This document shows, one piece after another, positions 10,033 through 48,800 of a DNA stretch of 51,856 bases. The number at the start of each line of letters is the position of its first letter. Position 1 is the first letter of the stretch. Source of the DNA: Nitrospinota bacterium (GTDB lineage: Bacteria > JADFOP01); NCBI GenBank assembly GCA_022562795.1, contig JADFOP010000011.1, positions 1 to 51,856 of the forward strand, written 5' to 3'. Made by a program: the position numbers and the translations under genes. The notes under the pieces are model-generated. The model saw only the letters and a list, made by a program, of their open reading frames with translations. It did not search any database and was not told the DNA's origin.

Positions 10033-10689
10033 TTAAATGGCAACCACCTGGACTTCTCGGGCGACCTTCCAGCCGATGACGCGCTGAGCCCCGTCTATGA
10101 GGAGTGTCAGGGGGCCCTCGAACGGTCCTTTATCCATGACTGTAATGGTTTTGTCGGGGGTGAGTCCCATCGAGGAGAGATATTGGAGCATAGCGGGGTC
10201 CTGGGCCGTGACGCGGCGAATCTCGGCCCGCTGGCCCACCTCCAGTTCGGTGAGGTCTGGCAGGGCTTCTTCATCCACGAGCCCCTCATGGGTAGGGATG
10301 GGGTCTCCGTGAGGGTCGACGGTGGGGTGGCCGAGGAGCTCAGCTATGCGCTCCACCAGCCGGTCGGAGACCGCGTGCTCCAGCCGTTCAGCTTCTGCGT
10401 GGACCTCATCCCATTGGAGGCCCACGACCTCGGTGAGGAAGAGCTCGATGAGGCGGTGGGCGCGGATGAGGCGCAGGGCCTCCTGTTCGCCCGCCTCGGT
10501 CAATTCGATCCCCTTATAGGGCGTGCGTCGGACGAGGTCGAGATCGGCGAGCCGTTTCACCATATTGCTTACCGATGCCGCGGCCACACCCAGCTGATCG
10601 GCCACCGCCGAGACCGCCACCCGCTCCTCCGAGCCCCGGAGGCTGTGGATGGCCTTTAGGTAGTCCCTCATCTTCTCACTGAGCGCCAT
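10033..10689 (-). CDS. DtxR/MntR-family metal-dependent transcriptional regulator
   Basis: The protein has a winged helix-turn-helix (residues about 1-70), a metal-binding dimerisation domain (about 70-140) and a C-terminal FeoA/SH3-like domain (about 150-218), the three-domain DtxR layout. Metal ligand positions can be read: AHRLIELFL carries the His and Glu of the ancillary site, and the primary site segment reads EAERLEH. The position that is Cys in DtxR/IdeR is Glu here, as in manganese-sensing MntR, and the N-terminal MRDYL keeps the Asp of MntR. I infer a Mn(II) or mixed Mn/Fe sensor. It is divergent from the multicopper oxidase-ZIP pair, and TTAGG-like elements occur on both sides of the shared intergenic region. 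Confidence 0.9.
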   Translation of the reverse strand: MALSEKMRDYLKAIHSLRGSEERVAVSAVADQLGVAAASVSNMVKRLADLDLVRRTPYKGIELTEAGEQEALRLIRAHRLIELFLTEVVGLQWDEVHAEAERLEHAVSDRLVERIAELLGHPTVDPHGDPIPTHEGLVDEEALPDLTELEVGQRAEIRRVTAQDPAMLQYLSSMGLTPDKTITVMDKGPFEGPLTLLIDGAQRVIGWKVAREVQVVAI

Positions 10690-10737
10690 CGCCCGCATGC
10701 TCCGAAAATGTGACCGCCTGAGCCTTCCCCTCTGAAT

Positions 10738-10768
10738 TGTAAGTTAGGCTGAGGCGGAGATTTAGGCC
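10738..10768. promoter_or_regulatory. Candidate DtxR/MntR box upstream of the regulator
   Basis: TGTAAGTTAGGCTGAGG (10738-10754) matches one half and the centre of the DtxR/IdeR consensus (TTAGGTTAGGCTAACCTAA). A second TTAGGC copy lies at 10763-10768, about two helical turns away. The site lies 50-80 bases before the regulator's start, so autoregulation is plausible. It is inferred by eye. Confidence 0.4.
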
Positions 10769-10950: not shown

Positions 10951-10983
10951 TTGACATTATATCATTACTAACCTAACTTTACA
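10951..10983 (+). promoter_or_regulatory. Promoter with overlapping DtxR-like box, multicopper oxidase-ZIP operon
   Basis: TTGACA (10951-10956) is followed after 17 bases by TAACTT, a weak -10. Overlapping the -10 is TACTAACCTAACTTTACA. Its reverse complement resembles the element before the regulator gene (TGTAA, GTTAGG, then T or CT). This would let the metalloregulator block polymerase when metal is plentiful. Confidence 0.45.
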
Positions 10984-11052
10984 ATCACCCCAGCCTAAGC
11001 CGCTGGAGTGGAGGGCGACATCGAGCACCGAAAGACCCTGGCCAGAGGTAAA

Positions 11053-12096
11053 ATGGTGACCCCCCTGAGAATAAAAACGGCAGTCGCAGCCTTGATTTGT
11101 CTCGGCGGAATTTTTCTCATTAAGCCGTTTATTACACCGGGTGCGCAAGAGACGAAACGCGATTATTTGAGCTTGCAGAAAACCGCTCAAGAACAGGTTG
11201 GGGTGAAGGGCGAATTTACGACAGAGGATTTTGACCCCATGGAGTTCTTAACGACCTGGAATTTTAATAATCTACCACCAGACGAGCGCCAAAAATTTTA
11301 CAAAGAATCAACCCTTCCCGATGGAAGGACGTTACGAGAATATTGGTTTCACGCCTTGGATAAAGAAATCGAAATCGCGCCAGGCGTCTTTTTTCCTGCC
11401 TGGACCTACAATGGCCAAGTCCCGGCCCCAACCATCAGAGCTACCGAAGGCGATCTCATCAGAATCCACTTCCAAAACCTAGGTACAAAACCCCACACCA
11501 TGCATTTTCACGGATTCCATCCCATTGAAATGGACGGCGCCCTGCCACATCAATTTGTCTACCCAGGAGAGACCTTCGTCTATGAATTTGATGCTGAGCC
11601 TTTCGGTGTTCACCTTTTCCACTGCCATTCAGTTCCTATTAGCCAGCACATCAGCAAAGGGCTCTATGGTGCGTATATTGTTGACCCAAAACATGATACG
11701 CGGCCGAAGCCGGACAAAGAACTGATTATGGTCATGAATGGGTTTGACACGAATTTCGATGAGGCGAACGAATTTTATGCCGTTAATACAGCCGCGTTTT
11801 ACTACGCAAAAAATCCTATTAAAGTAAAGGTCGGAGAACTTATTAGAATTTATTTAATAAATATTCTTGAGTTTGACCAAATTAATTCCTTCCACCTTCA
11901 TGCCCAGTTCTTTTATGAATATCAAACGGGGACAAGCCTGAAGCCCGACTTCTACACAGACATAACCGTTATGGGGCAGGGGGAACGATCGATCCTGGAT
12001 ATCCGATTCAAATTTTCTGGGAAAATTATGTTCCATGCCCACAAGACCGAGTTTGCTGAACAAGGCTGGATGGGGTTCTTTGAGGTACACGAATAA
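11053..12096 (+). CDS. Two-domain multicopper oxidase, periplasmic
   Basis: This 347-residue enzyme has a signal anchor at residues 6-26. The first cupredoxin domain carries PHTMHFHGFHP (His148, 151, 153) and HLFHCHSVPISQH (His190, Cys191, His192, His199), giving a type 1 copper Cys-His pair and His-x-His ligands. The second domain has SFHLHAQ (His281, 283) and MFHAHK (His328, 330) but no Cys, so it lacks a type 1 site. This is the pattern of two-domain oxidases in which the trinuclear cluster forms between subunits. Such enzymes oxidise phenols, Fe(II), Mn(II) or Cu(I) with O2. The ATG at 11053 follows AGAGGT; a GTG at 11008 is less likely. A ZIP transporter starts 2 bases downstream. Codon use is AT-richer than its neighbours, suggesting transfer. 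Confidence 0.88.
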   Translation: MVTPLRIKTAVAALICLGGIFLIKPFITPGAQETKRDYLSLQKTAQEQVGVKGEFTTEDFDPMEFLTTWNFNNLPPDERQKFYKESTLPDGRTLREYWFHALDKEIEIAPGVFFPAWTYNGQVPAPTIRATEGDLIRIHFQNLGTKPHTMHFHGFHPIEMDGALPHQFVYPGETFVYEFDAEPFGVHLFHCHSVPISQHISKGLYGAYIVDPKHDTRPKPDKELIMVMNGFDTNFDEANEFYAVNTAAFYYAKNPIKVKVGELIRIYLINILEFDQINSFHLHAQFFYEYQTGTSLKPDFYTDITVMGQGERSILDIRFKFSGKIMFHAHKTEFAEQGWMGFFEVHE

Positions 12097-12098
12097 CC

Positions 12099-13289
12099 AT
12101 GCTACGAAGACGACTCAAGACCGGCTTCAATGCTTTGCTTCCGGTATTCTTGTTACTTTTGCTCCTCCTTGTCTTCCTCAAATATGGCCCATTAGGGGTT
12201 TTCAAAGCGTCTGTGCCGCCGATTGAAGAAGTATTCATCCAAAAAGTGACCTTTTCCCCGGACCATATTGTGGTGGATGTGATTAACGACGGACCCGAGC
12301 CTGTGACGATTGCCCAAATCTTAGTGAATGAGGTCTTCTGGCAATTTCACATGGCGCCGAGCCAAACTCTCAATCCGTTGGAGCGGGGGAGGATTGATAT
12401 TTCCTATCCGTGGGTTGAAGGTGATGTCGAACGAATAACGCTGGTGTCACGAAACGGCGTAACGTTTGAAACAGAAGTGAACGTCGCAACGGTGACGCCC
12501 ACTTTTAACTTCCTCTACTTTAAGTCTTTTATGTTGCTTGGCGTGTACGTGGGTGTGATTCCGGTTCTGTTGGGCTTGATGTGGTTTCCTTTCCTCGTCA
12601 CCCTGCGCGGGAAAGGGTATGCTTTCCTGTTGGCGCTCACCGTCGGGCTATTGGTCTTTTTAGGTTTTGACGCGCTCTCGGAGTCGTTTAACCTCCTCAA
12701 GGACGTGCCGGAGTCGTTTAACGGTGTCGGGATCATCGTCATTGGATTGCTACTTGCCATTTTATCCTTGTCGGCTGTCAGTTACAAAACACAACACCAG
12801 AGAAGAGAAAAAGGCGAACATTATCAGGCGTTGGTCTGGGGCTATTTGATCGCCCTTGGGATTGGCTTGCACAATCTCGGCGAGGGATTGGCCATAGGCA
12901 GCGCGTACGCCATTGGAGAGATTGCCCTGGGAAGCACCTTGGTGATTGGTTTCATGATCCACAATGTGACCGAAGGCGTTGCCATTGTCGCCCCCTTGAC
13001 AAGAACCTACAAGCACATCAACCGCTTTCTCTTTCATCTGATCATGATGGGGCTGCTCGCCGGCGCTCCCACCATCCTCGGGACCTTGATTGGGGGCTTT
13101 GCATATTCTGCGGCCATAGCTGTGTTGTTCCTCTCCATCGGAGCTGGCGCCATATTCGATGTCTCCTTCGACATCCTGAATCATATGGCAAAAGGGAAAT
13201 GGCTTGAAATCTTTACGGTCACGAATGCCCTCGGATTTCTTTCAGGCCTTTTAATCATGTACGTGACAGGATTTTTGGTTGTGGGGTAA
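12099..13289 (+). CDS. ZIP-family metal transporter with N-terminal periplasmic domain
   Basis: The protein is 396 residues. A first membrane segment (about 11-30) is followed by an extracytoplasmic beta domain of about 100 residues (IQKVTFSPDHIVVDV through TLVSRNGVTFETEV). About eight membrane helices follow from residue 135 to the end. Two ZIP metal-binding motifs are clear: HNLGEG (257-262) and HNVTEG (287-292), the TM4/TM5 pair that binds the transported divalent metal. The added periplasmic domain is unusual for bacterial ZIPs. It is translationally coupled to the multicopper oxidase (2-base gap) and shares its AT-rich codon use. I infer uptake of Fe, Mn or Zn with the oxidase acting on the metal outside the membrane. 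Confidence 0.87.
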   Translation: MLRRRLKTGFNALLPVFLLLLLLLVFLKYGPLGVFKASVPPIEEVFIQKVTFSPDHIVVDVINDGPEPVTIAQILVNEVFWQFHMAPSQTLNPLERGRIDISYPWVEGDVERITLVSRNGVTFETEVNVATVTPTFNFLYFKSFMLLGVYVGVIPVLLGLMWFPFLVTLRGKGYAFLLALTVGLLVFLGFDALSESFNLLKDVPESFNGVGIIVIGLLLAILSLSAVSYKTQHQRREKGEHYQALVWGYLIALGIGLHNLGEGLAIGSAYAIGEIALGSTLVIGFMIHNVTEGVAIVAPLTRTYKHINRFLFHLIMMGLLAGAPTILGTLIGGFAYSAAIAVLFLSIGAGAIFDVSFDILNHMAKGKWLEIFTVTNALGFLSGLLIMYVTGFLVVG

Positions 13290-13381: not shown

Positions 13382-14368
13382 ATGTCGGCCAACTTACCCC
13401 CGGAATATTACGTTGCGGAGAAAGTCTTCCGCGCCGCCAAGACCACTGAAGAGAAAATACGCGCCATTGAGGAGATGATCCGGGCCACCCCCCACCACAA
13501 GGGGACTGATAGGGTTCTGGGCAAGCTCCGCCAGAGGATCAAGAAGCTCAAGGAGCAGGCCGAAAAAAAAGCCGGCCCAGTCCGACGCGGGTTCCTCTAC
13601 GGAGTGAAGAAGGAAGGGGCGGCGCAGGTGATGCTCACGGGGCTGCCCAACAGCGGGAAGTCGGCCCTCCTCGAGGCATTGACCAATGCCCAATCCGAGG
13701 TAGCCCCCTGGCCGTTCACCACACGCATGCCACAGCCTGGGATGATGACCTTCGAGAACATCCAGGTCCAGATGGTGGACCTCCCCCCCCTGGGCGATGA
13801 GGCCTCTGTATCGTGGCTGTCCAATGTGCTTTTCGGAGCCGACGGCTACTGCCTCGTGGTGGATGTCACCGACGAGCCCGCCTTGGCGGTGGAGATGATC
13901 CGAGAGGAGCTCGCCCGCTGGAAGATCGCCCTGCGCCCTCGGGGGGACGTTACTCCGCCAGAGGAAGGCTGGAGAAAAAAGCACGCGCTTGTGGTCGGCA
14001 CGAAGGTGGACGAGCCGGGCGGGGCCGAGGGCTACCGCACCCTGGAGGCAGCGTGCGGCGAGACATTCATCACGGCAGCCTGCTCGATCCTTGAGCCGGA
14101 AACGCTGGAGGGCGTCAGGCGGGCCTTCTTCGATGCCCTGGCCATTATGCGCGTCTACACCAAGGCCCCCGGGAAGAAGCCCGACATGGAAAGCCCCTTT
14201 ATCCTGGAGGTGGGCGCGACGGTCCTCGATGCGGCTGCGGCCGTCCACAAGGACTTCGCGAATCAGCTCAAGGCTGCCCGATTGTGGGGCAGCGGGAAGT
14301 TCGATGGCCAGCAGGTCCAGCGCGACTACGTGCTCCACGACGGCGACATCATCGAGCTTCGCCTCTAG
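13382..14368 (+). CDS. DRG/Obg-like GTPase with TGS domain
   Basis: The 328-residue protein has a basic helical N-terminus (1-75), a G domain with G1 GLPNSGKS (87-94), a G2-like PFTTRMPQPGMM, G3 DLPPLG (133-138), G4 TKVD (207-210) and a G5-like TAACS, then a C-terminal TGS domain (about 253-328) ending YVLHDGDIIELRL. This is the plan of the DRG GTPases of archaea and eukaryotes, which bind ribosomes; bacterial members are patchy and little studied. G4 is TKxD rather than NKxD. The gene appears monocistronic with its own promoter. A long minus-strand frame overlaps it but is a shadow. Confidence 0.88.
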   Translation: MSANLPPEYYVAEKVFRAAKTTEEKIRAIEEMIRATPHHKGTDRVLGKLRQRIKKLKEQAEKKAGPVRRGFLYGVKKEGAAQVMLTGLPNSGKSALLEALTNAQSEVAPWPFTTRMPQPGMMTFENIQVQMVDLPPLGDEASVSWLSNVLFGADGYCLVVDVTDEPALAVEMIREELARWKIALRPRGDVTPPEEGWRKKHALVVGTKVDEPGGAEGYRTLEAACGETFITAACSILEPETLEGVRRAFFDALAIMRVYTKAPGKKPDMESPFILEVGATVLDAAAAVHKDFANQLKAARLWGSGKFDGQQVQRDYVLHDGDIIELRL

Positions 14369-14571: not shown

Positions 14572-15243
14572 ATGCGTAGCATCGCCAAGCTTTTCGGACG
14601 CCCCCCTTTTGGCCCTCTTCAGGAACATATGCGAAAGGTCCGGGAGTGCTGCGAGAAGATTCCCGGGCTCTTTGAGGTCGTCAAGGAGGGCGATTTCGAG
14701 CGGTTACGGGAACTGCAACGGGAAATTTCCCGGCTCGAGTGGGAGGCCGACGAAATTAAGAACGATGTGCGGGAGCACCTCCCACGCAGCATCTTCATGC
14801 CTGTCGACCGGGCCGATATCCTGGACGTTTTGTCGGCGCAGGATGCTGTCTCAGATTGCGCAGAAGATGTAGGCGACCTCCTGACCCTTCGTCCCCTACC
14901 GTTCCTCGAGGGCTTTAACCCTGAGTTCGAGGCTTTCCTGGACCAGGTGATGGTCTGCTGCCGCATGGGAGCCGATATCACCGAGGAGATGGATAAGCTC
15001 GTTGAGGCCTCCTTCGGCGGGCCGGAGGCCGCCAAGGTCCTGGAGATGGTGAACGAGCTCTGCGAGGAAGAATACAAATCGGACCGTCTCCACCGCGCCT
15101 TTATCCGCAAGCTCTTCACCATCGAGGACCAGACCGACCCCATTAGCGTAATGATGTGGTATCAGGTTTCTGAAAAGGTTGCCCATCTGGCCAACTACTC
15201 CGAACGCATGGCCAACCGGGTGCGCCTGCTCCTGGCTAAGTAA
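14572..15243 (+). CDS. DUF47/PhoU-like phosphate transport regulator
   Basis: This 223-residue, mostly helical protein belongs to the DUF47 (TIGR00153) family, which is related to PhoU. The start SIAKLFGRPPFGPLQEHM and the segment LPRSIFMPVDRADILDVLSAQD are typical. These proteins pair with PiT phosphate permeases and are thought to control their activity at the membrane. Here the PiT gene starts 15 bases downstream, which supports the role. Confidence 0.9.
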   Translation: MRSIAKLFGRPPFGPLQEHMRKVRECCEKIPGLFEVVKEGDFERLRELQREISRLEWEADEIKNDVREHLPRSIFMPVDRADILDVLSAQDAVSDCAEDVGDLLTLRPLPFLEGFNPEFEAFLDQVMVCCRMGADITEEMDKLVEASFGGPEAAKVLEMVNELCEEEYKSDRLHRAFIRKLFTIEDQTDPISVMMWYQVSEKVAHLANYSERMANRVRLLLAK

Positions 15244-15258
15244 ACTCTCTCGGCTCTC

Positions 15259-16512
15259 ATGCCCCCTCCGGCAATCATTCTCCTCATTGCTGCGGCTGCC
15301 GGCCTTTACATGGCCTGGAACATCGGGGCCAACGATTTAGCCAACGCAATGGGGACCTCCGTGGGGTCGGGCGCCTTAACCTTAAAGCAGGCCGTGATCA
15401 TCGCGGCGGTCTTCGAGTTGGCCGGGGCGGTTCTCGTCGGCTCCCACGTGACCGAGACCGTCCGAAAAGGCATGGTGGACCCGGCCGTCTTCGCGCCCAA
15501 CCCCAACCTCATTCTCTGGGGCATGACCTCGGCCCTGCTGGCAGCTGCCATCTGGCTTCAGGTGGCCACAGCCCTCGGTATGCCGGTCTCCACCACCCAC
15601 TCCATTGTGGGGGCGGTCGTTGGCTTCGGTCTGGTTGGCGGCGGTTTGGGGGCCATCCGGTGGGCCAAGATCGGCCTGATTGCCGCTAGCTGGATCTTCT
15701 CGCCCCTCGTGGGTGGGGCCATCGCATTCGGCCTCTTCGTCTTCATCCGCCGCCGGATCCTCGAGGCGCCCGACCCATTGGCTTCGGCCAACCTATACGC
15801 GCCATGGTTCGTCTTCGTGGTGGTCTTCATCCTGGTCTTATCCTTCATCTACAAGGGTCTCAAGAATCTCCATCTCGATTTCCCCCTGCCCCAGGCGATG
15901 GGGATTGCCGCGGCCGTAGGGCTGGCCTGCACCTTCATCGGGCGCCGCTTCATCTCGCGCGCAGTTTTGCCCCCGGCCGGCGCCGACGGCCGCCCGACGC
16001 AGTCGGTCGAGGGGGTATTTCGCTTCCTTCAAATCGTGACCGCCGGATACGTGGCTTTCGCTCATGGCTCCAACGACACGGCCAACGCCATCGGGCCGCT
16101 TGCGGCAATCTTAGGGGTCTTACGCCACGAGCCTTTGGGTGCGCAGGTTGAGGTCCCCACCTGGGTTCTCCTTCTCGGCGGGATGGGCATCGTTCTTGGC
16201 CTGGCGACCTATGGCTACAAGGTCATCGAAACCATCGGCAAGAAGATCACCCACCTCACCCACGCCAGCGGCTTTGCGGCCCAGTTTGCAGCCGCAACGA
16301 CCATTCTCGTCGGCTCCAAGCTCAGCCTGCCTCTCTCTACAACCCATACCATTGTGGGGGCCGTTGTCGGCGTAGGGTTGGCCCGAGGTATCGCCGCTCT
16401 AAATCTCCGTATGCTTCGTAATATCGCAAACTCCTGGCTCATCACCCTCCCCTTCACAGCGGTCCTTACCATAATCTTGTATAAGCTCGCGCTCCTGATC
16501 ACCGGGGGATGA
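15259..16512 (+). CDS. PiT-family inorganic phosphate transporter
   Basis: This 417-residue inner membrane protein has about ten to twelve helices. Both PiT signature repeats are present: NIGANDLANAMGTSVGSGAL near residue 22 and AHGSNDTANAIGPLAAI near residue 272, each followed later by the STTH motif (MPVSTTHS and LPLSTTHT). The inverted-repeat halves are the mark of PiT symporters, which move metal-phosphate with H+ or Na+. Length is normal and the partner DUF47 gene lies immediately upstream. Confidence 0.95.
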   Translation: MPPPAIILLIAAAAGLYMAWNIGANDLANAMGTSVGSGALTLKQAVIIAAVFELAGAVLVGSHVTETVRKGMVDPAVFAPNPNLILWGMTSALLAAAIWLQVATALGMPVSTTHSIVGAVVGFGLVGGGLGAIRWAKIGLIAASWIFSPLVGGAIAFGLFVFIRRRILEAPDPLASANLYAPWFVFVVVFILVLSFIYKGLKNLHLDFPLPQAMGIAAAVGLACTFIGRRFISRAVLPPAGADGRPTQSVEGVFRFLQIVTAGYVAFAHGSNDTANAIGPLAAILGVLRHEPLGAQVEVPTWVLLLGGMGIVLGLATYGYKVIETIGKKITHLTHASGFAAQFAAATTILVGSKLSLPLSTTHTIVGAVVGVGLARGIAALNLRMLRNIANSWLITLPFTAVLTIILYKLALLITGG

Positions 16513-16962: not shown

Positions 16963-17481
16963 TTGAGACCAGCGTACCATTGGGCTTTGGCCCTCTGGCT
17001 AGCCCTTGTTTTGGCGGGCTGCAACACCCAGAATGCCGAGCCACCGCCGAGAGAGATTCAGGCCTCTGCCACGACGGAGCGATTCGCAGAGTCCCCCTCC
17101 CCCTTGAAGCTGCCGCCATGGCACCCACCCATCGGGAAAGCCGCCACAATAGAGGGACGCATCTCTTTAGCCCCCGGGTTAGATGGGAATACCTCGCCCG
17201 AGGCAGTCCTCTTCATTATAGCCCGACCTTCAGGCTCTAAGATGCCCGTTGCCGTGGTGCGCCTCCAGGGGCCTACCTTCCCGCACAGCTACACCATCGG
17301 CCCCCAGCACATGATGATTCCCTCCGGCCGCTTCGAAGGAGAAGTGGAGGTCTCAGCCCGACTCGACGGGGACGGATTAGTTGGCCCGCCCCAGCCAGGC
17401 GACCTGGGGGGGAGCTATCCGAATAACCCCGTATCGGTTGGAGAGGGTCATGTAGATTTCCAGTTGGACAAGCTCTTCTAG
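16963..17481 (+). CDS. Lipoprotein with CcmI C-terminal-like beta domain
   Basis: The protein begins at a TTG with an AAGGTGAG site and has a signal peptide ending LVLAGC, a clear lipobox (Cys20). After a Pro-rich linker, residues about 60-172 resemble the C-terminal domain of the cytochrome c maturation protein CcmI/CycH: VLFIIARPSGSKMPVAVVRL, a strand, an MMIP turn, VEVSARLDGDG and QPGDLGG. In CcmI this domain helps handle apocytochrome c. Here it is an isolated outer- or inner-membrane lipoprotein with no Ccm genes nearby, 15 bases before a cupredoxin gene. The homology is my reading of the motif order. Confidence 0.65.
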   Translation: MRPAYHWALALWLALVLAGCNTQNAEPPPREIQASATTERFAESPSPLKLPPWHPPIGKAATIEGRISLAPGLDGNTSPEAVLFIIARPSGSKMPVAVVRLQGPTFPHSYTIGPQHMMIPSGRFEGEVEVSARLDGDGLVGPPQPGDLGGSYPNNPVSVGEGHVDFQLDKLF

Positions 17482-17496
17482 AAAGGAGGAGATAAT

Positions 17497-17949
17497 ATGA
17501 GCGCGAGAGTCAGTGCGGCGGTCGTGGCAATTACGGTTTTCGTATTGATGGGAATGGGGAGCGCGGACTACGTTCGCGATGCGGCTGAACGCGTGAAGGC
17601 CGCGGATTGGACCAAGATGAAAACCGTCAGTGTGACGCAAAAAGAGCACGCCTTCGCACCGTCAACGCTGGTCTTCCGGGAGGGCGTCCCTTACAAGCTA
17701 GTGATAACAAACAAAGGGGCGTCGAAGCACTATTTCACGGCTGAGAATTTTTTCAAAGCCATCGCAACCCGTAAAGTGCAAAATACCGACGGCGAAATCA
17801 AAGCACCATACTTCAAGGCTCTCGAGGTATTCCCGGGCCGCTCCATGGAGCTCTACTTCATCCCAGTCAAGAAGGGCGCCTACAACTTCTTGTGCACGAT
17901 CGAGGGGCACGCAGAGCTCGGCATGAAAGGCCACATACGGATCGAGTGA
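17497..17949 (+). CDS. Periplasmic cupredoxin-like copper protein
   Basis: This 150-residue protein has an N-terminal signal/anchor (residues 5-22) and a plastocyanin-like fold. Type 1 copper ligands are visible: His78 in SKHYFTAENF, Cys133, His138 and Met143 in FLCTIEGHAELGM. The strong site AAAGGAGGAGATAAT precedes the ATG. Such proteins carry electrons or copper in the periplasm. The lipoprotein upstream (15-base gap) is probably its partner. The ligand set is complete, so it should bind copper. Confidence 0.85.
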   Translation: MSARVSAAVVAITVFVLMGMGSADYVRDAAERVKAADWTKMKTVSVTQKEHAFAPSTLVFREGVPYKLVITNKGASKHYFTAENFFKAIATRKVQNTDGEIKAPYFKALEVFPGRSMELYFIPVKKGAYNFLCTIEGHAELGMKGHIRIE

Positions 17950-43238: not shown

Positions 43239-43288
43239 ATATGGCCGTGAAATTATGGTTTTTCCAACTCCCTGAAAATGGGCCGATA

Positions 43289-44230
43289 ATGAAAATGCCT
43301 CTTAGGCTGGTGCGGCGTGGGTTTGCGGCGCTTATGGTCGTTGTGGGCCTGGTGTGCCTAGCACTGCCCGCGCAGGCTCGAGCGGGCCGCCTCAAGGTGC
43401 TCACCACCATTCGCCCCTTGTACGCCTTCACCGTCCAGGTTGCCGGAGAGGCGGCCACGGTGGAAAGCCTCCTCCCGCCGGGGGTGGGTCCACACAACTA
43501 CGCCTTGCGCCCCTCGGACGCCGCTCGGCTCCATGGGGCTGACGTCCTCGTCATCAACGGTCTGGGGCTTGAGACCTGGCTTGAGGGCGCGGTGGATGCC
43601 GTCGGAAAGCCGGGCCTTATCGTCATAGATACCAGCGTTGGCATAAAGCCGTTGCCCCTAAGAGTGCTGAGCGCCCGTCAGGAGAGGCGTGCCGAGGCGG
43701 GCGGCCACGCCGAGGGCCGGTGGGACCCGCATATTTGGCTCGACCCCGTGCGGGCAATCCGCCAGGTCGAGAACATCCGGGATGGACTCGCCAGAGCCGA
43801 CCCTGCCAGCGCGGCCGTCTACGCTTCCAACGCAAAAGAGGCCATCGGGCGGCTCGAGGCGCTCCATGGGGAGATGATGGTCGTGACCGCCCGGTTCCGG
43901 CATCGCGAACTTATGACTTTCCATACAGCCTTCCAGTACTTCGCCCGCCGATACGGCCTCAGTGTGGTCGCTGTGGTCGAAGATGCTCCCGGCAAAGAGC
44001 CGACGCCGAAGTTCCTTGCCCGCCTCCATAAGCTCATCGAACGCCACGGACTCAGGGTCATCTACACCGAGCCCCAGTACCGTTCTCGGGTTGCCGAGGT
44101 GCTGGCCCGGGACATGGGACTTGAGGCAGCCGAGCTCGACCCCGGGGTCACGGGGCCCCTTGGGCCCGAGGCCTACGAGGCGGTCATGCGCAAAAATTTG
44201 AAGGTCTTATCCCGTTTTCAGAGCCCTTAG
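43289..44230 (+). CDS. Metal ABC transporter, solute-binding protein (Zn/Mn type)
   Basis: This periplasmic cluster A-I binding protein has 313 residues and a signal ending LALPAQARA. Metal ligands are PHNYALRPSD, a second His in DPHIWLDP, a third in MTFHTAFQYFARRY, and an Asp in ELDPGVTG near the end. A short His-bearing loop (GGHAEGRWDPH) replaces the long His-rich loop of many ZnuA proteins. Zn and Mn cannot be told apart from this. The ATPase and permease genes follow at once. The ATG at 43289 gives a normal signal; an upstream one at 43241 is less likely. Confidence 0.92.
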   Translation: MKMPLRLVRRGFAALMVVVGLVCLALPAQARAGRLKVLTTIRPLYAFTVQVAGEAATVESLLPPGVGPHNYALRPSDAARLHGADVLVINGLGLETWLEGAVDAVGKPGLIVIDTSVGIKPLPLRVLSARQERRAEAGGHAEGRWDPHIWLDPVRAIRQVENIRDGLARADPASAAVYASNAKEAIGRLEALHGEMMVVTARFRHRELMTFHTAFQYFARRYGLSVVAVVEDAPGKEPTPKFLARLHKLIERHGLRVIYTEPQYRSRVAEVLARDMGLEAAELDPGVTGPLGPEAYEAVMRKNLKVLSRFQSP

Positions 44231-44304
44231 GCGCTCCTTGCGGGCGGACAGGCTGCGTGCTACTATCATACGCCCCCCACGCCCGAAGGCCCTAGGAGAG
44301 CGCC

Positions 44305-45081
44305 ATGTCGTACCTGGAGATCGACGAACTCACGGTGGAGCTGGATGGAATCCGCGTGCTGGATCGGGTCTCACTGGCCCTTGAAAAGGGAGAGGTGGCG
44401 GCAATCGTCGGGCCCAACGGCGCGGGCAAGACGACACTGTTGAAGGCCGTTCTCGGATTGGTGCCCGTCGTCTCAGGCACGGTGAGCGTTGCTGGCCGAA
44501 AGGTCGAGCCGCACCACCGCGGGGCGCTCCCCATCGGATACGTCCCGCAGCGGATGGAGTTCGACCGGGGCTTCCCAATCACGGTGGCCGAATTCGCTGG
44601 GCTCCGCCTTTCAGCCGCCGGCCCCACCGCATTCTTGCAGCACCGGGGGGAGACGCGAGCCCTGGTCATGGAGGCCCTCCATCGGGTCGGGGCGGGCCAT
44701 TTGGCCCAGCGCCTTCTAGGCCGGCTTTCGGGGGGCGAGCTCCAACGACCCCTCATAGCCTTCGCCCTTCTGGGCAACCCTGAGATCCTCTTCCTCGACG
44801 AGCCCCTGGCAGGGCTCGACATTTCGGGCGAGGAGACCCTCTACCAGCTCGTCGACGAGCTGCGCCGCACTTCTCCCCCACTGACGGTCCTCATGGTTTC
44901 CCACGACCTCCAGGTTGTCTACCGGAGGGCCAGTCGGGTGTTTTGCCTCAATCGCAGCATAGTCTGTTCGGGCTCGCCCACCGAGGTGCTGACCGACGAG
45001 AACTTGCGCCGAGCCTACGGCGCAATGGTTGGTTTCTACGAGCATGACCACCCCCATTCAGAGGAGGCCGTTGATGGGTGA
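44305..45081 (+). CDS. Metal ABC transporter, ATP-binding protein
   Basis: This 258-residue ABC ATPase has Walker A GPNGAGKTT, the Q-loop region, signature LSGGELQR, Walker B ILFLDEP and switch His in VSHDLQVV. It is the ZnuC/MntB type that powers the permease. The stop overlaps the start of the permease gene by 8 bases. Confidence 0.95.
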   Translation: MSYLEIDELTVELDGIRVLDRVSLALEKGEVAAIVGPNGAGKTTLLKAVLGLVPVVSGTVSVAGRKVEPHHRGALPIGYVPQRMEFDRGFPITVAEFAGLRLSAAGPTAFLQHRGETRALVMEALHRVGAGHLAQRLLGRLSGGELQRPLIAFALLGNPEILFLDEPLAGLDISGEETLYQLVDELRRTSPPLTVLMVSHDLQVVYRRASRVFCLNRSIVCSGSPTEVLTDENLRRAYGAMVGFYEHDHPHSEEAVDG

Positions 45082-45883
45082 GATTCTCGCTTACCCGTTT
45101 ATGCAGCGGGCGCTCCTTGCCGCTGTAATAATAGGGCCTTTGTGCGCCTTCCTAGGCGTCTTCGTCATCCTTCGCCAGATGGCCTTCTTCTCAGACGCCA
45201 TCGCCCACGCGGCGCTGACGGGCATAGCGCTTGGCCTGCTGCTACAGATCCACCCAATGGCCGTTCTCGTCGTCTTCTCCCTCCTGGTGGCCGCGGCCAT
45301 AGTCTTCACATCTGAACGGACGACCCTGCCACAAGACACCGTGATAGGGGTCTACTTCTCTGGAGCGCTGGCCTTCGGGGTGCTCGTGCTAAACGCCATG
45401 GAGGGCTACCCGATTGATCTCTTCGCGTTTCTCTTTGGCGACATCTTGGTTGTGGGGCCCCTGGACCTCTTTATCATGGCGGCCCTGGCGATCGGCGTTG
45501 TGGCGGTGGTTATGTCCCGCCTGCGCGTCTTCGTGCTTTTGACCCTAAGCCCAGACCTCGCCCGGGCCGAGGGCCTACCGGTGAGGCTCTATCACTATAT
45601 CTTCGTGGGCCTTCTTGCCCTCGTGGTCACGGCGGGGCTTAAGATCGTGGGCGTTATCCTTGTGAGCGCTCTAATCGTCATCCCGGCCGCTGCTGCTCGG
45701 AACCTCGCCCAGACCTTCTCGGCGATGCTGGCGCTGAGCGCCGCCCTCGGGCTGGCTTCAAGCCTTGCCGGCGTAGTCACCTCCTTCCACTTCGACACTC
45801 CCACGGGCCCCACCATCGTCATGGTCTCCATCGCCATCTTCGCTGCCTCTTGCCTGTGGCCGCAGCGGGTGGCGCGCGCCTGA
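45074..45883 (+). CDS. Metal ABC transporter, permease protein
   Basis: This 269-residue membrane protein has eight or so helices and the ABC-3 fold: FVILRQMAFFSDAIAHAALTGIALG, then LRVFVLLTLSPDLARAEGLPV (the coupling region) and VTAGLKIVGVILVSALIVIPAAAA. It completes the three-gene importer. The ATG at 45074 has a GAGGAGG site. Confidence 0.94.
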   Translation: MGEILAYPFMQRALLAAVIIGPLCAFLGVFVILRQMAFFSDAIAHAALTGIALGLLLQIHPMAVLVVFSLLVAAAIVFTSERTTLPQDTVIGVYFSGALAFGVLVLNAMEGYPIDLFAFLFGDILVVGPLDLFIMAALAIGVVAVVMSRLRVFVLLTLSPDLARAEGLPVRLYHYIFVGLLALVVTAGLKIVGVILVSALIVIPAAAARNLAQTFSAMLALSAALGLASSLAGVVTSFHFDTPTGPTIVMVSIAIFAASCLWPQRVARA

Positions 45884-45887
45884 ATGC

Positions 45888-48800
45888 TTAATTTAGGTTG
45901 AGCCTGCGCGTAAGGTAGCGGAAGGGTCTTGTAGCGGCCCCCAGGACGCTGCCAACCGTCCCCTTTAGGTATGCCGCCTTCTCTTCAGCCGACATCGACT
46001 CGAGAAACCCCTGGAGGGCCTCCAAGCCCAGGAGAGATTGCAGGGTCTCTTGGATTTTGAATACCCTGGGTCGGAAGAACTCAATCCGCCTGTCATCGAT
46101 AGTTCCCGTGATGTGGGCAATCTCCACCCGGCTTGCTGACTCCAGGGTGTCGGGGATTTTATCGCGGAAGGGACGCAAACCTATGTTCTCGATGAGGTCG
46201 ACCACCACGAAGTAGTCAATCTCTCGGGTTCGGTGGTCCGTCCAGCCGTGCACGAAGAGGTTGACCGTCGGGGCCTCGAAGTGGATTCGGTTGCTCGAAC
46301 GCCCGGCCTTCCTGCGGGTCTCGATGAGGGCCCGATCGAAGGTGTAGTGGCTGAGGGTCAAGGTGGGAAATACCTGGCGGGTCTCTTGGGGTGTGGATGC
46401 GCTTACCACGTAGCCACGGTTGACCTCGACTGTGGAGGTTCCCTCAAGTGTCTCTTTCAGCCTGGCCGTATTGCCGAAGGAGGCTGCACCCTTGGCCGAA
46501 AGTTTCAGGGAGCCGGTCACGAAGAGGTTGGGGAAAACTCTATCTAGCAGCGCCCTTATATTAGGGTCCGCCCCCAGGCCCCACCAATCTACCGTCGCCT
46601 CGAGGGCCGGCTCAGGTCCTGTCAGATCAAAAGTGAGAACGTGATGGGCCTCGCCTCCAACCAAGCCGAAGTCAAGCAGGGGGACATGAATGACACCCTC
46701 GGAGCCGGTGACATCCATGGCCAGGTTGGTAACTCTGTAGGGATCGATGCGAAGCTCCTCGGCCTGAACCCTTCCGTGAAGCTGAACTCCTCCCATTATC
46801 TCAGTGGCGAGCTTTATCTTCCACGCGGCAGGTTCAGACTCGGTTGGCGGCTTGAGGTGAGCCCAGAGGTTCGTGAGATCAACCCGCCCGGCATCAACCA
46901 GGAATAACGCTCCCAGCCCGGAGGCTTTCTTCTCAACGGTCGCGGTGAGGGCGACCGGTTGGTCGTCTACGGTTAACAGGAGCCGCTCGGTAAAGAGGCT
47001 CGTTGGCGAGTGGGTGATGGTCCCATGTAGGCCCAGAGTAACGGCGGGCTCCTCGGCCAGGGTGAAAGAGGCGTTGTGGAAGTCGGCCGATCCATGGAGG
47101 GCCGCTCGTCCCTCAGCCCACTTCAGGTTTCCGCGGACCGCAATCCCCCCCCTGAGCGATTGGGTGGTCAGAGGCCTCCAGAGGGGGAATAACGTTGCCA
47201 GATCGCTAACGGAGCCCTCGTAAGTTAGGCTGGCGGTGGCCAAGTCCTCGGCCACACGGCCGGCGAAGCTCATTTCCACCGGGCCTACGTCCAAGCGGAT
47301 CTGGTCGAATTCCATCATCTCCCGCTCCAGCCGCCCGCCGGCCAGACGGAGGCGGGCCGGTAGGCCGGCGGCCTTGGATAAATCGGGGCCCCAGTGAACC
47401 TCCAGGGCGGTGGCGTCGACGTCAAAGTCCAACTCCATGGTCTCCTGGAAGCGGGCGACCGTCGCTTTAGCCTCCAATGACCCAGAAGTAGTTACCCCCG
47501 CAGGGAGCCAGAGGAGGTTTTGACCCAGGCGGCGCTTGAGCCCATCGACATCGATGTGCAGAGCCGCCTTAAGATCATATCGGGGCCTGATGGTTTGGAG
47601 GGGGAGCTTGCCCCTGAGCGAAGCGGCCGCCATGGGCAACCGCACCTCTGCATGACGTACCAAGAGGGTATGTTTCTTATATTCCAAGGTGGCTTCGACG
47701 ATTGCTGGTTCACCTTGGGCCTTCATCTCCATACCGCCTATCACGACACGCGCATCGGTTGCATCGAGCGTCCCGGCCAGGGTCAGTCCCTCCAGCAGGC
47801 CCCGCACGGTGAGCTCCGCTGTGACGTCGCCTGCGACGCTCACCGCCCTGGAGGAGGGAGGTTGGGAGGCGTACCACCGCTCCGCAAGAAGCTCGGCACT
47901 TGCCCGGCTCGTTACCCGAAGGTTCACGGAGGTTCGCTGGGGCTGCTCCCAGTTGACCATGCCTGTTAGATGAGTCTCTCCCTCCGGGGCCTTAAGCTCG
48001 ATCTGATGGATGGTCCACCGCTCGGCGACCCTTTCGAGGTTGAAGGCCAGGCGGGCAGGCTCACCCGGGGCCTTGAGCGCTAGGCCCGCTACCCGTACGG
48101 CGGCTGTCTCGAGATCAATGGAGCCCGAAACAGCCGTTCGCCCGGGACCAGCATTCAGCGTGGCCTCCCAGGTGATAGGACCCTCTATGTCCACCCCCTG
48201 GCTCGCCAACGCCTCCTGGGCCGTTCGCGGCAGCTTTTCGGGGATGAGCCTTCCCTGGATGGCGCCGTCGAAGGTCATGCCCTCTGGGGGCCGCTCCACT
48301 TGTCCTCTCACCTCCGCCTCCATCCAAGGGATTGAAAAGTGCAGCCGCTCAAGTCCAACCGCACCCGAGGCAACGTCGTACTGGCCCTTCAAGGATAGGG
48401 CCGCGTCGGTGAGCTCCACCGGCTGGCCGCCTGGCGCCTCCAAGCGGACCTGCCCGACGGTGAGGCTGCCTTCGACGTCCACCGCGTCCGTGCTCCGTCG
48501 GGCCAATGTAAGCTGGACGGTGGCATTGCGGACTAGGCCCGAAGCCAGAGGCGCGAGAGCCCCTTTAAGCTCCTCTGATGTGGTCGTCTCCCCCCAGTCG
48601 AACTCCTCCACCTTGATCTGGATAGCGCCCAGCAGAGCCCCCCAGGTCAGGCGCTCCGCCCCCTCAGCAAGGGAGAGCGTCCCTTCCAGCTCCACATTCG
48701 CCCGGTCGGAGGCATCGGGGACGCTGAAGGCGACCTGGAACCGGAGCGGCCCCCGGAGGCTCTCGAGGCGGCTAGTGAGATTTACGTTCCTCAGGGCCAG

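Follow-up and report, generated by a model that had tools for sequence, protein, structure and literature searches.

The window, a stretch of 51,856 nucleotides from a Nitrospinota contig, encodes a multicopper oxidase (11053–12096, + strand; its reading frame has an alternative start at 11008) followed by a ZIP-family transporter (12099–13289, + strand). The two genes are 2 bases apart, as an earlier note on this DNA had remarked. Divergent from the oxidase gene lies a gene coding for a metal-dependent regulator of the DtxR/MntR family with a C-terminal FeoA/SH3 domain (10033–10698, − strand). Downstream of the pair are a TGS-domain GTPase (13382–14368) and, just 3′ of it, a PhoU-like (DUF47) gene and a Pit-type phosphate transporter (14572–16512, + strand). 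A CycH-Ig-domain lipoprotein-like gene stands beside a CopI/rusticyanin-like cupredoxin (16963–17949, + strand), and the two may work together in copper handling or electron transfer. The window further encodes an ABC metal importer of three genes (substrate-binding protein, ATPase, and permease; 43241–45883, + strand), by eye of the Znu/Mnt type. A search of the genome found neither an NRAMP nor FeoB, and no ZIP besides this one; the ABC importer and the ZIP seem to be its main systems of divalent-metal uptake.

The oxidase begins with a signal anchor or signal peptide and has two Pfam domains, Cu-oxidase_3 at residues 114–214 (E = 7e-22) and Cu-oxidase_2 at residues 236–345 (E = 2e-23). Its domain-1 copper motifs (11494–11664, + strand) hold the type 1 ligands H148, C191, and H199, invariant in 34 homologues, the axial L204, found in 32 of the 34, and the trinuclear-cluster histidines H151, H153, H190, and H192. 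Domain 2 (11893–12042, + strand) contributes H281, H283, H328, and H330, and the trinuclear histidines of both domains are invariant in the 34 homologues; ligands were assigned to sites by inspection, following the motif spacing of NirK and multicopper oxidases. Because the domain-2 motif HAHKTEF has no Cys, type 1 copper is restricted to domain 1. Hence, the two Pfam domains and the conservation of the ligands bear out the earlier description of a two-domain oxidase with type 1 copper in domain 1 only. In the current naming this arrangement defines the type C two-domain multicopper oxidases (PMC13151041), and judged by its domains and ligands the window oxidase is one of them. A nitrite reductase is rejected, as the trinuclear histidines are complete and the nearest relatives are oxidases. 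The closest solved chains, 3gdc (354 bits) and 7rab (339 bits), are both annotated merely as multicopper oxidases, and the literature searched yielded nothing usable on the function of 3GDC, 7RAB, or 7RAC. From its relatives, the oxidase is assumed to be a homotrimer with an inter-subunit trinuclear cluster. Among haloarchaeal oxidases (L020–L022 and L025–L029), the first copper motif reads HTIHPH, with HPH replacing HFH, and the interdomain insert is longer.

The ZIP protein scores 33.2 bits against Pfam Zip (cut-off 35.1), and its residues ~177–385 align with solved BbZIP (38 bits); its AF2 model contains the eight-helix ZIP fold and finds BbZIP in Foldseek with E = 2.3e-6. The metal motifs that had been read from the sequence are present: HNLGEG in helix 4 (H258–G263, with ligands H258 and E262; 12870–12887, + strand) and HNVTEG in helix 5 (H288–G293, with ligands H288 and E292; 12960–12977, + strand). 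Among 40 homologues H258, N259, E262, H288, N289, and E292 are invariant, as is the Thr of the second motif. The position of the second-site E240 of BbZIP, in helix 6, is occupied by Ala (A321) in 39 of the 40 (alignment by eye).

Preceding this core, the AF2 model (40 sequences, pLDDT 83) has a transmembrane helix at residues 2–29 (12102–12185, + strand) and an eight-strand beta-sandwich domain at residues 45–127 (12231–12479, + strand). The latter, which reaches a pLDDT of 89.6 when folded alone, confirms the extra beta domain proposed earlier. Among solved structures, Foldseek matches it best to FlaG and FlaF, which are stator proteins of the archaellum, and to archaeal type IV pilins (for FlaG, 5tuh, E = 7.5e-5, TM 0.70, 16% identity). 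The domain thus has a known fold, but one that serves protein–protein contacts, so the suggestion that it is a docking site is not refuted. N63, T70, W105, and G120 are invariant among the ZIP homologues, which have no conserved His, Met, or Cys in this domain and hence no conserved metal ligands there; this and the better match to FlaG/FlaF disfavour a metal chaperone of the PCuAC or CopC type. The N terminus of ZIPs is usually outside. The start MLRRRLK suggests that the N terminus of the window protein lies in the cytoplasm, and because of this charged terminus and the helix that follows, the beta domain would lie outside, where it would join the usual outer N terminus of the ZIP core.

The association of the two genes is conserved and reciprocal, which upholds the linkage expected from the window. 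Among related loci in GTDB genomes, the oxidase gene is directly upstream of the ZIP gene in 41 of 43, the remaining two being cut at contig ends, and in most pairs the genes overlap or abut. In 80 haloarchaeal genomes, all 57 oxidases of the family are directly upstream of a ZIP with the outer domain and all 57 such ZIPs directly follow an oxidase, whereas none of 18 ZIP paralogues lacking the domain is near such an oxidase. In actinobacterial genomes 31 of 34 oxidases are paired, as counted by eye from two tables; of the other three, one is broken across contigs and the remaining two are true exceptions. Since the genomes counted are related, these numbers do not stand for independent events; the pairing nonetheless spans phyla and domains. 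The trees of the two proteins are congruent (Mantel r 0.91, against a maximum of 0.13 in 500 permutations), and this agreement and the reciprocity in haloarchaea reject chance adjacency. The restriction of the outer domain to oxidase-paired ZIPs, in the haloarchaea where it was tested, is consistent with a docking role. In one Thermoleophilia genome, a further ZIP, which lacks the outer domain, is encoded ~2 kb away from the pair (L036, 8778–9659).

The pair is found in DPANN archaea, haloarchaea, actinobacteria, cyanobacteria, alphaproteobacteria, Bacillaceae, and Deinococcus, among others, and it is often plasmid-borne: ~150 plasmid records contain the ZIP, with a matching set of genera for the oxidase. 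The nearest relatives of the window's bacterial pair are in Woesearchaeota (about 72% identity), which implies that the pair has passed between domains. Viral spread was rejected, as viral contigs and phage records contain no relatives. In a genome of the same genus as the window (G001), one contig holds a tail of ~60 ZIP residues alone, 92% identical (L129, 3336–3515), and another fragment lies elsewhere; these are either a remnant or an assembly fault.

The regulator matches Fe_dep_repr_C (5.5e-32), FeoA (1.2e-20), and Fe_dep_repress (1.4e-14) in Pfam. Its best NCBIfam match is the MntR model NF047407, at 190 bits, below the curated cut-off of 350 for an equivalog, and its nearest PDB chains are 5zr4, 8pvt, SloR, and ScaR. 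A DtxR/MntR gene is next to the pair in 36 of the 54 loci that could be evaluated. Four alphaproteobacterial plasmids (of Ensifer, Pseudosulfitobacter, Shinella, and Sinorhizobium) have it annotated as MntR, and in some lineages the neighbouring regulator is ArsR or Fur, or there is none. The window protein has D12, H81, E104, E107, and H108 at the ligand positions, with no Cys. At the positions of Met10 and Cys102, which favour iron in IdeR and are Asp/Asn and Glu in MntR (PMC10317159), these regulators have Asp and one of Glu, Asp, or His, respectively. At the position of MntR Glu11 they have Lys, as does DR2539, which senses both Mn and Fe and is a repressor of mntH; DtxR-family sensors such as DR2539 often respond to both metals (PMC3327659). 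Given this shared Lys, it is possible that the regulator of the pair senses iron too.

The upstream regions also contain a candidate operator. The DtxR-type palindrome TTAG-N6-CTAA was counted 68 times in upstream windows totalling 38.8 kb at 111 loci, against 5 times in 860 kb elsewhere. Because the set includes near-duplicate loci, the ~300-fold enrichment should be read as a rate and does not tally independent events. The loci with the palindrome include 33 where no adjacent regulator was found, in many cases because too little upstream DNA was available to reveal one. The woesearchaeal loci have an almost perfect palindrome, AAGTTAGGYTAACCTAACTT, located between a TATA-like box and the start of the regulator gene. 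The 51,856 nucleotides of the window contain no full TTAG-N6-CTAA palindrome, only half-sites. The half-site AAGTTAGGCT occurs 3 times in the window (0.09 expected) and 5 times in the entire 2.15-Mb genome. Two copies are in the intergenic region between regulator and oxidase, one facing each gene: AAGTTAGGCT at 10741–10750 (+ strand), upstream of the regulator gene, and AAGTTAGGTT at 10970–10979 (− strand; CTAACCTAACTT on the + strand), upstream of the oxidase gene and matching one arm of AAGTTAGGYTAACCTAACTT. The third, at 47222, is inside the coding region of a 1140-residue open reading frame and is taken as chance. Binding to half-sites has been reported for IdeR (PMC10317159).

Other genes adjoin the pair in particular lineages. 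In Woesearchaeota and Micrarchaeota, an MntH-like NRAMP gene follows the ZIP gene, giving the order dtxR-mco-zip-nramp, which is also that of one Pacearchaeota locus. In one micrarchaeal locus the NRAMP gene is broken by a stop (L018, 7119–8362), and the ZIP stretch there appears with a TGA in the genome search (L087). A Rieske (2Fe-2S) gene is found 3′ of the ZIP gene in Chroococcidiopsis (L132, 10258–10692), Rhodococcus (L134, 10129–10548), Rubrobacter (L136, 10836–11297), and Nocardia (L147, 6186–6467), which suggests an electron-transfer partner. A gene of the plastocyanin/azurin family follows the pair in haloarchaeal plasmids (L137, 9100–9522; L148, 4798–5022). In Bacillaceae, TatA and TatC genes beside the pair (L131, 10167–10343; L138, 5123–6086) may provide the oxidase with an export route of its own. 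In some lineages, copper-handling genes (P-type ATPase, PCuAC, and SCO) are near the pair. Because Rieske, plastocyanin, TatA/TatC, or copper-assembly genes adjoin the pair, supplying the oxidase with copper and transferring electrons are kept as possible roles of these neighbours.

The regulator, the operator, and the NRAMP partner make Mn(II), or Mn and Fe, the most likely metal, which the earlier note had left unspecified. We give about an even chance to a mobile metal-acquisition module in which the outer domain of the ZIP holds an oxidase trimer at the mouth of the importer, an MntR/DtxR-type switch controls both genes, and Mn(II) is the ion imported. At metal sufficiency, a repressor of this type loaded with Mn(II) (or Fe(II)) would shut the pair off; at low Mn (or Fe) it would leave the operator, and both proteins would be made from one translationally coupled transcript. 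The FlaG/FlaF-like domain would then hold the two-domain oxidase trimer at the outer face of the importer, where Mn(II) would enter through a promiscuous ZIP made selective by the oxidase. With O2, the oxidase would remove competing Fe(II), and possibly Cu(I), at the pore while Mn(II) passes; alternatively, it might in some other way provide the redox species that the pore needs. Since Mn(II) resists oxidation, whereas Fe(II) and Cu(I) are readily oxidised, we favour the oxidase as a gatekeeper. A link between multicopper oxidase activity and cell Mn has a precedent in Pseudomonas putida GB-1, whose mnxG/mcoA double mutant contains 59-fold less Mn (PMC3798386). The fuller proposal, a cross-domain, plasmid-borne system in which an oxidase docked on the FlaG/FlaF-like domain makes Mn(II) uptake O2-dependent and redox-gated under an MntR-type switch, is held more tentatively. 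Several observations speak against an Mn module: oxidase trimers and ZIP dimers have mismatched symmetry, the regulator is ArsR, Fur, or absent in some lineages, copper or Rieske/plastocyanin genes are near other pairs, the window has half-sites only, and the pair of ammonia-oxidising archaea is modestly up under copper limitation (PMC7785015).

That last observation belongs to a published proposal for these archaea, copper acquisition, in which the oxidase would convert Cu(I) to Cu(II) and the ZIP would import Cu(II); there, MCO1 and the neighbouring permease are modestly induced when copper is limiting (PMC7785015). Copper-assembly and copper-transport genes adjoining the pair in some bacteria and haloarchaea also agree with it, but these genes might do no more than supply the oxidase with its four coppers. 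In addition, the regulator and operator that recur belong to the DtxR/MntR type and not to CsoR, CueR, or CopY, and the DPANN operons end in an NRAMP. We thus consider copper acquisition unlikely, and the sequence evidence favours acquisition of Mn(II), or of Mn and Fe, over it.

A direct hand-over, in which Fe(III) or Mn(III) formed by the oxidase is passed to the ZIP and imported as the oxidised ion, as in Fet3–Ftr1, would account for the strict pairing and for an outer domain able to hold the oxidase; oxidation-coupled Mn uptake and import of Mn(III) have both been raised as possibilities (PMC3798386). It is, however, less likely for a ZIP, and we find it more doubtful than copper acquisition: the His/Glu ligands are typical of divalent transport, the helix-6 second site has lost its Glu (A321), and no ExxE motif of Ftr1 is seen. 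We know of no ZIP that carries trivalent ions. Detoxification or redox protection, with the oxidase as the main actor of metal-resistance islands and the ZIP exporting metal or keeping its balance, would suit the plasmid copies surrounded, in heavy-metal islands, by genes for P-type ATPases, CDF, and ArsR, and also the Rieske or plastocyanin genes that at some loci suggest electron transfer. It is nonetheless the least probable explanation: an MntR/DtxR operator means that the genes are on when metal is scarce, ZIPs are as a rule importers, and the partner NRAMP is an importer too.

These results unite scattered annotations ("multicopper oxidase domain-containing protein", "metal transporter") in one two-gene unit, found from DPANN archaea to actinobacteria and on plasmids, and give it a likely regulator, an operator, and a metal class. 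They also offer a candidate function for orphan two-domain oxidases, including the one whose structure is 3gdc, and an alternative to the roles, Cu uptake or the oxidation of hydroxylamine, that have been proposed for MCO1 of ammonia-oxidising archaea. Should the oxidase couple oxidation to uptake, the unit would bear on the purpose of Mn and Fe oxidation at the cell surface.

Among the nearest described systems is the MCO1 and ZIP of these archaea (Nitrososphaera viennensis NVIE_000600/000590 and others), also a two-domain oxidase with a leucine-type T1 site next to a ZIP or zinc permease. The adjacency appears in a table of PMC5817080 and is taken up in PMC5767755 and in PMC7785015, which draws an explicit comparison with Fet3 and advances the copper hypothesis for MCO1 and its neighbouring permease. 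Adjacent genes and a Leu-type T1 are present in the window as well, but regulation here points to Mn/Fe, and the range extends to bacteria, DPANN archaea, and haloarchaea. The earlier statement that no such bacterial system is described needs correcting: the archaeal pair is published, while the bacterial one is annotated, with no functional description found in the open-access literature, outside which most subscription journals fall. The adjacency and the Fet3-like idea being already published, what is new is the adjoining DtxR/MntR regulator, the NRAMP of DPANN archaea, and the enriched operator.

An oxidase on a plasmid of Arthrobacter sp. FB24 belongs to the same subfamily and has the same gene order, with a divergent regulator and mco and zip genes overlapping by 4 bp; the deposited structure is that of the oxidase alone. 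From organism and family, we take this gene to be the probable source of the 3gdc chain, which would thus be the oxidase member of such a pair. BbZIP and ZupT-type transporters share with the window ZIP the C-terminal eight-helix core and the metal motifs of helices 4 and 5; the window protein differs by its added helix and FlaG/FlaF-like domain, by the replacement of the Pro of both motifs, and by Ala instead of Glu in helix 6. Mn uptake through MntH under MntR or DR2539 provides a parallel for the DtxR-family repressor, the inverted-repeat operator, and, in DPANN archaea, the NRAMP in the operon, but here the main target is the oxidase–ZIP pair. Yeast Fet3–Ftr1, the analogy drawn in the earlier note, likewise joins a multicopper oxidase to a metal permease. 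It is chemically a weak one, as Fet3 is a three-domain oxidase and Ftr1 an Fe(III)-specific permease with ExxE, whereas the window combines a two-domain oxidase with a ZIP, outside the Ftr1 family, whose His/Glu ligands are of the divalent type. If the Mn(II) reading is true, the pair would be a prokaryotic counterpart of Fet3–Ftr1 with an unrelated permease and a different metal, and, should oxidation be coupled to uptake, an independent solution to the same problem.
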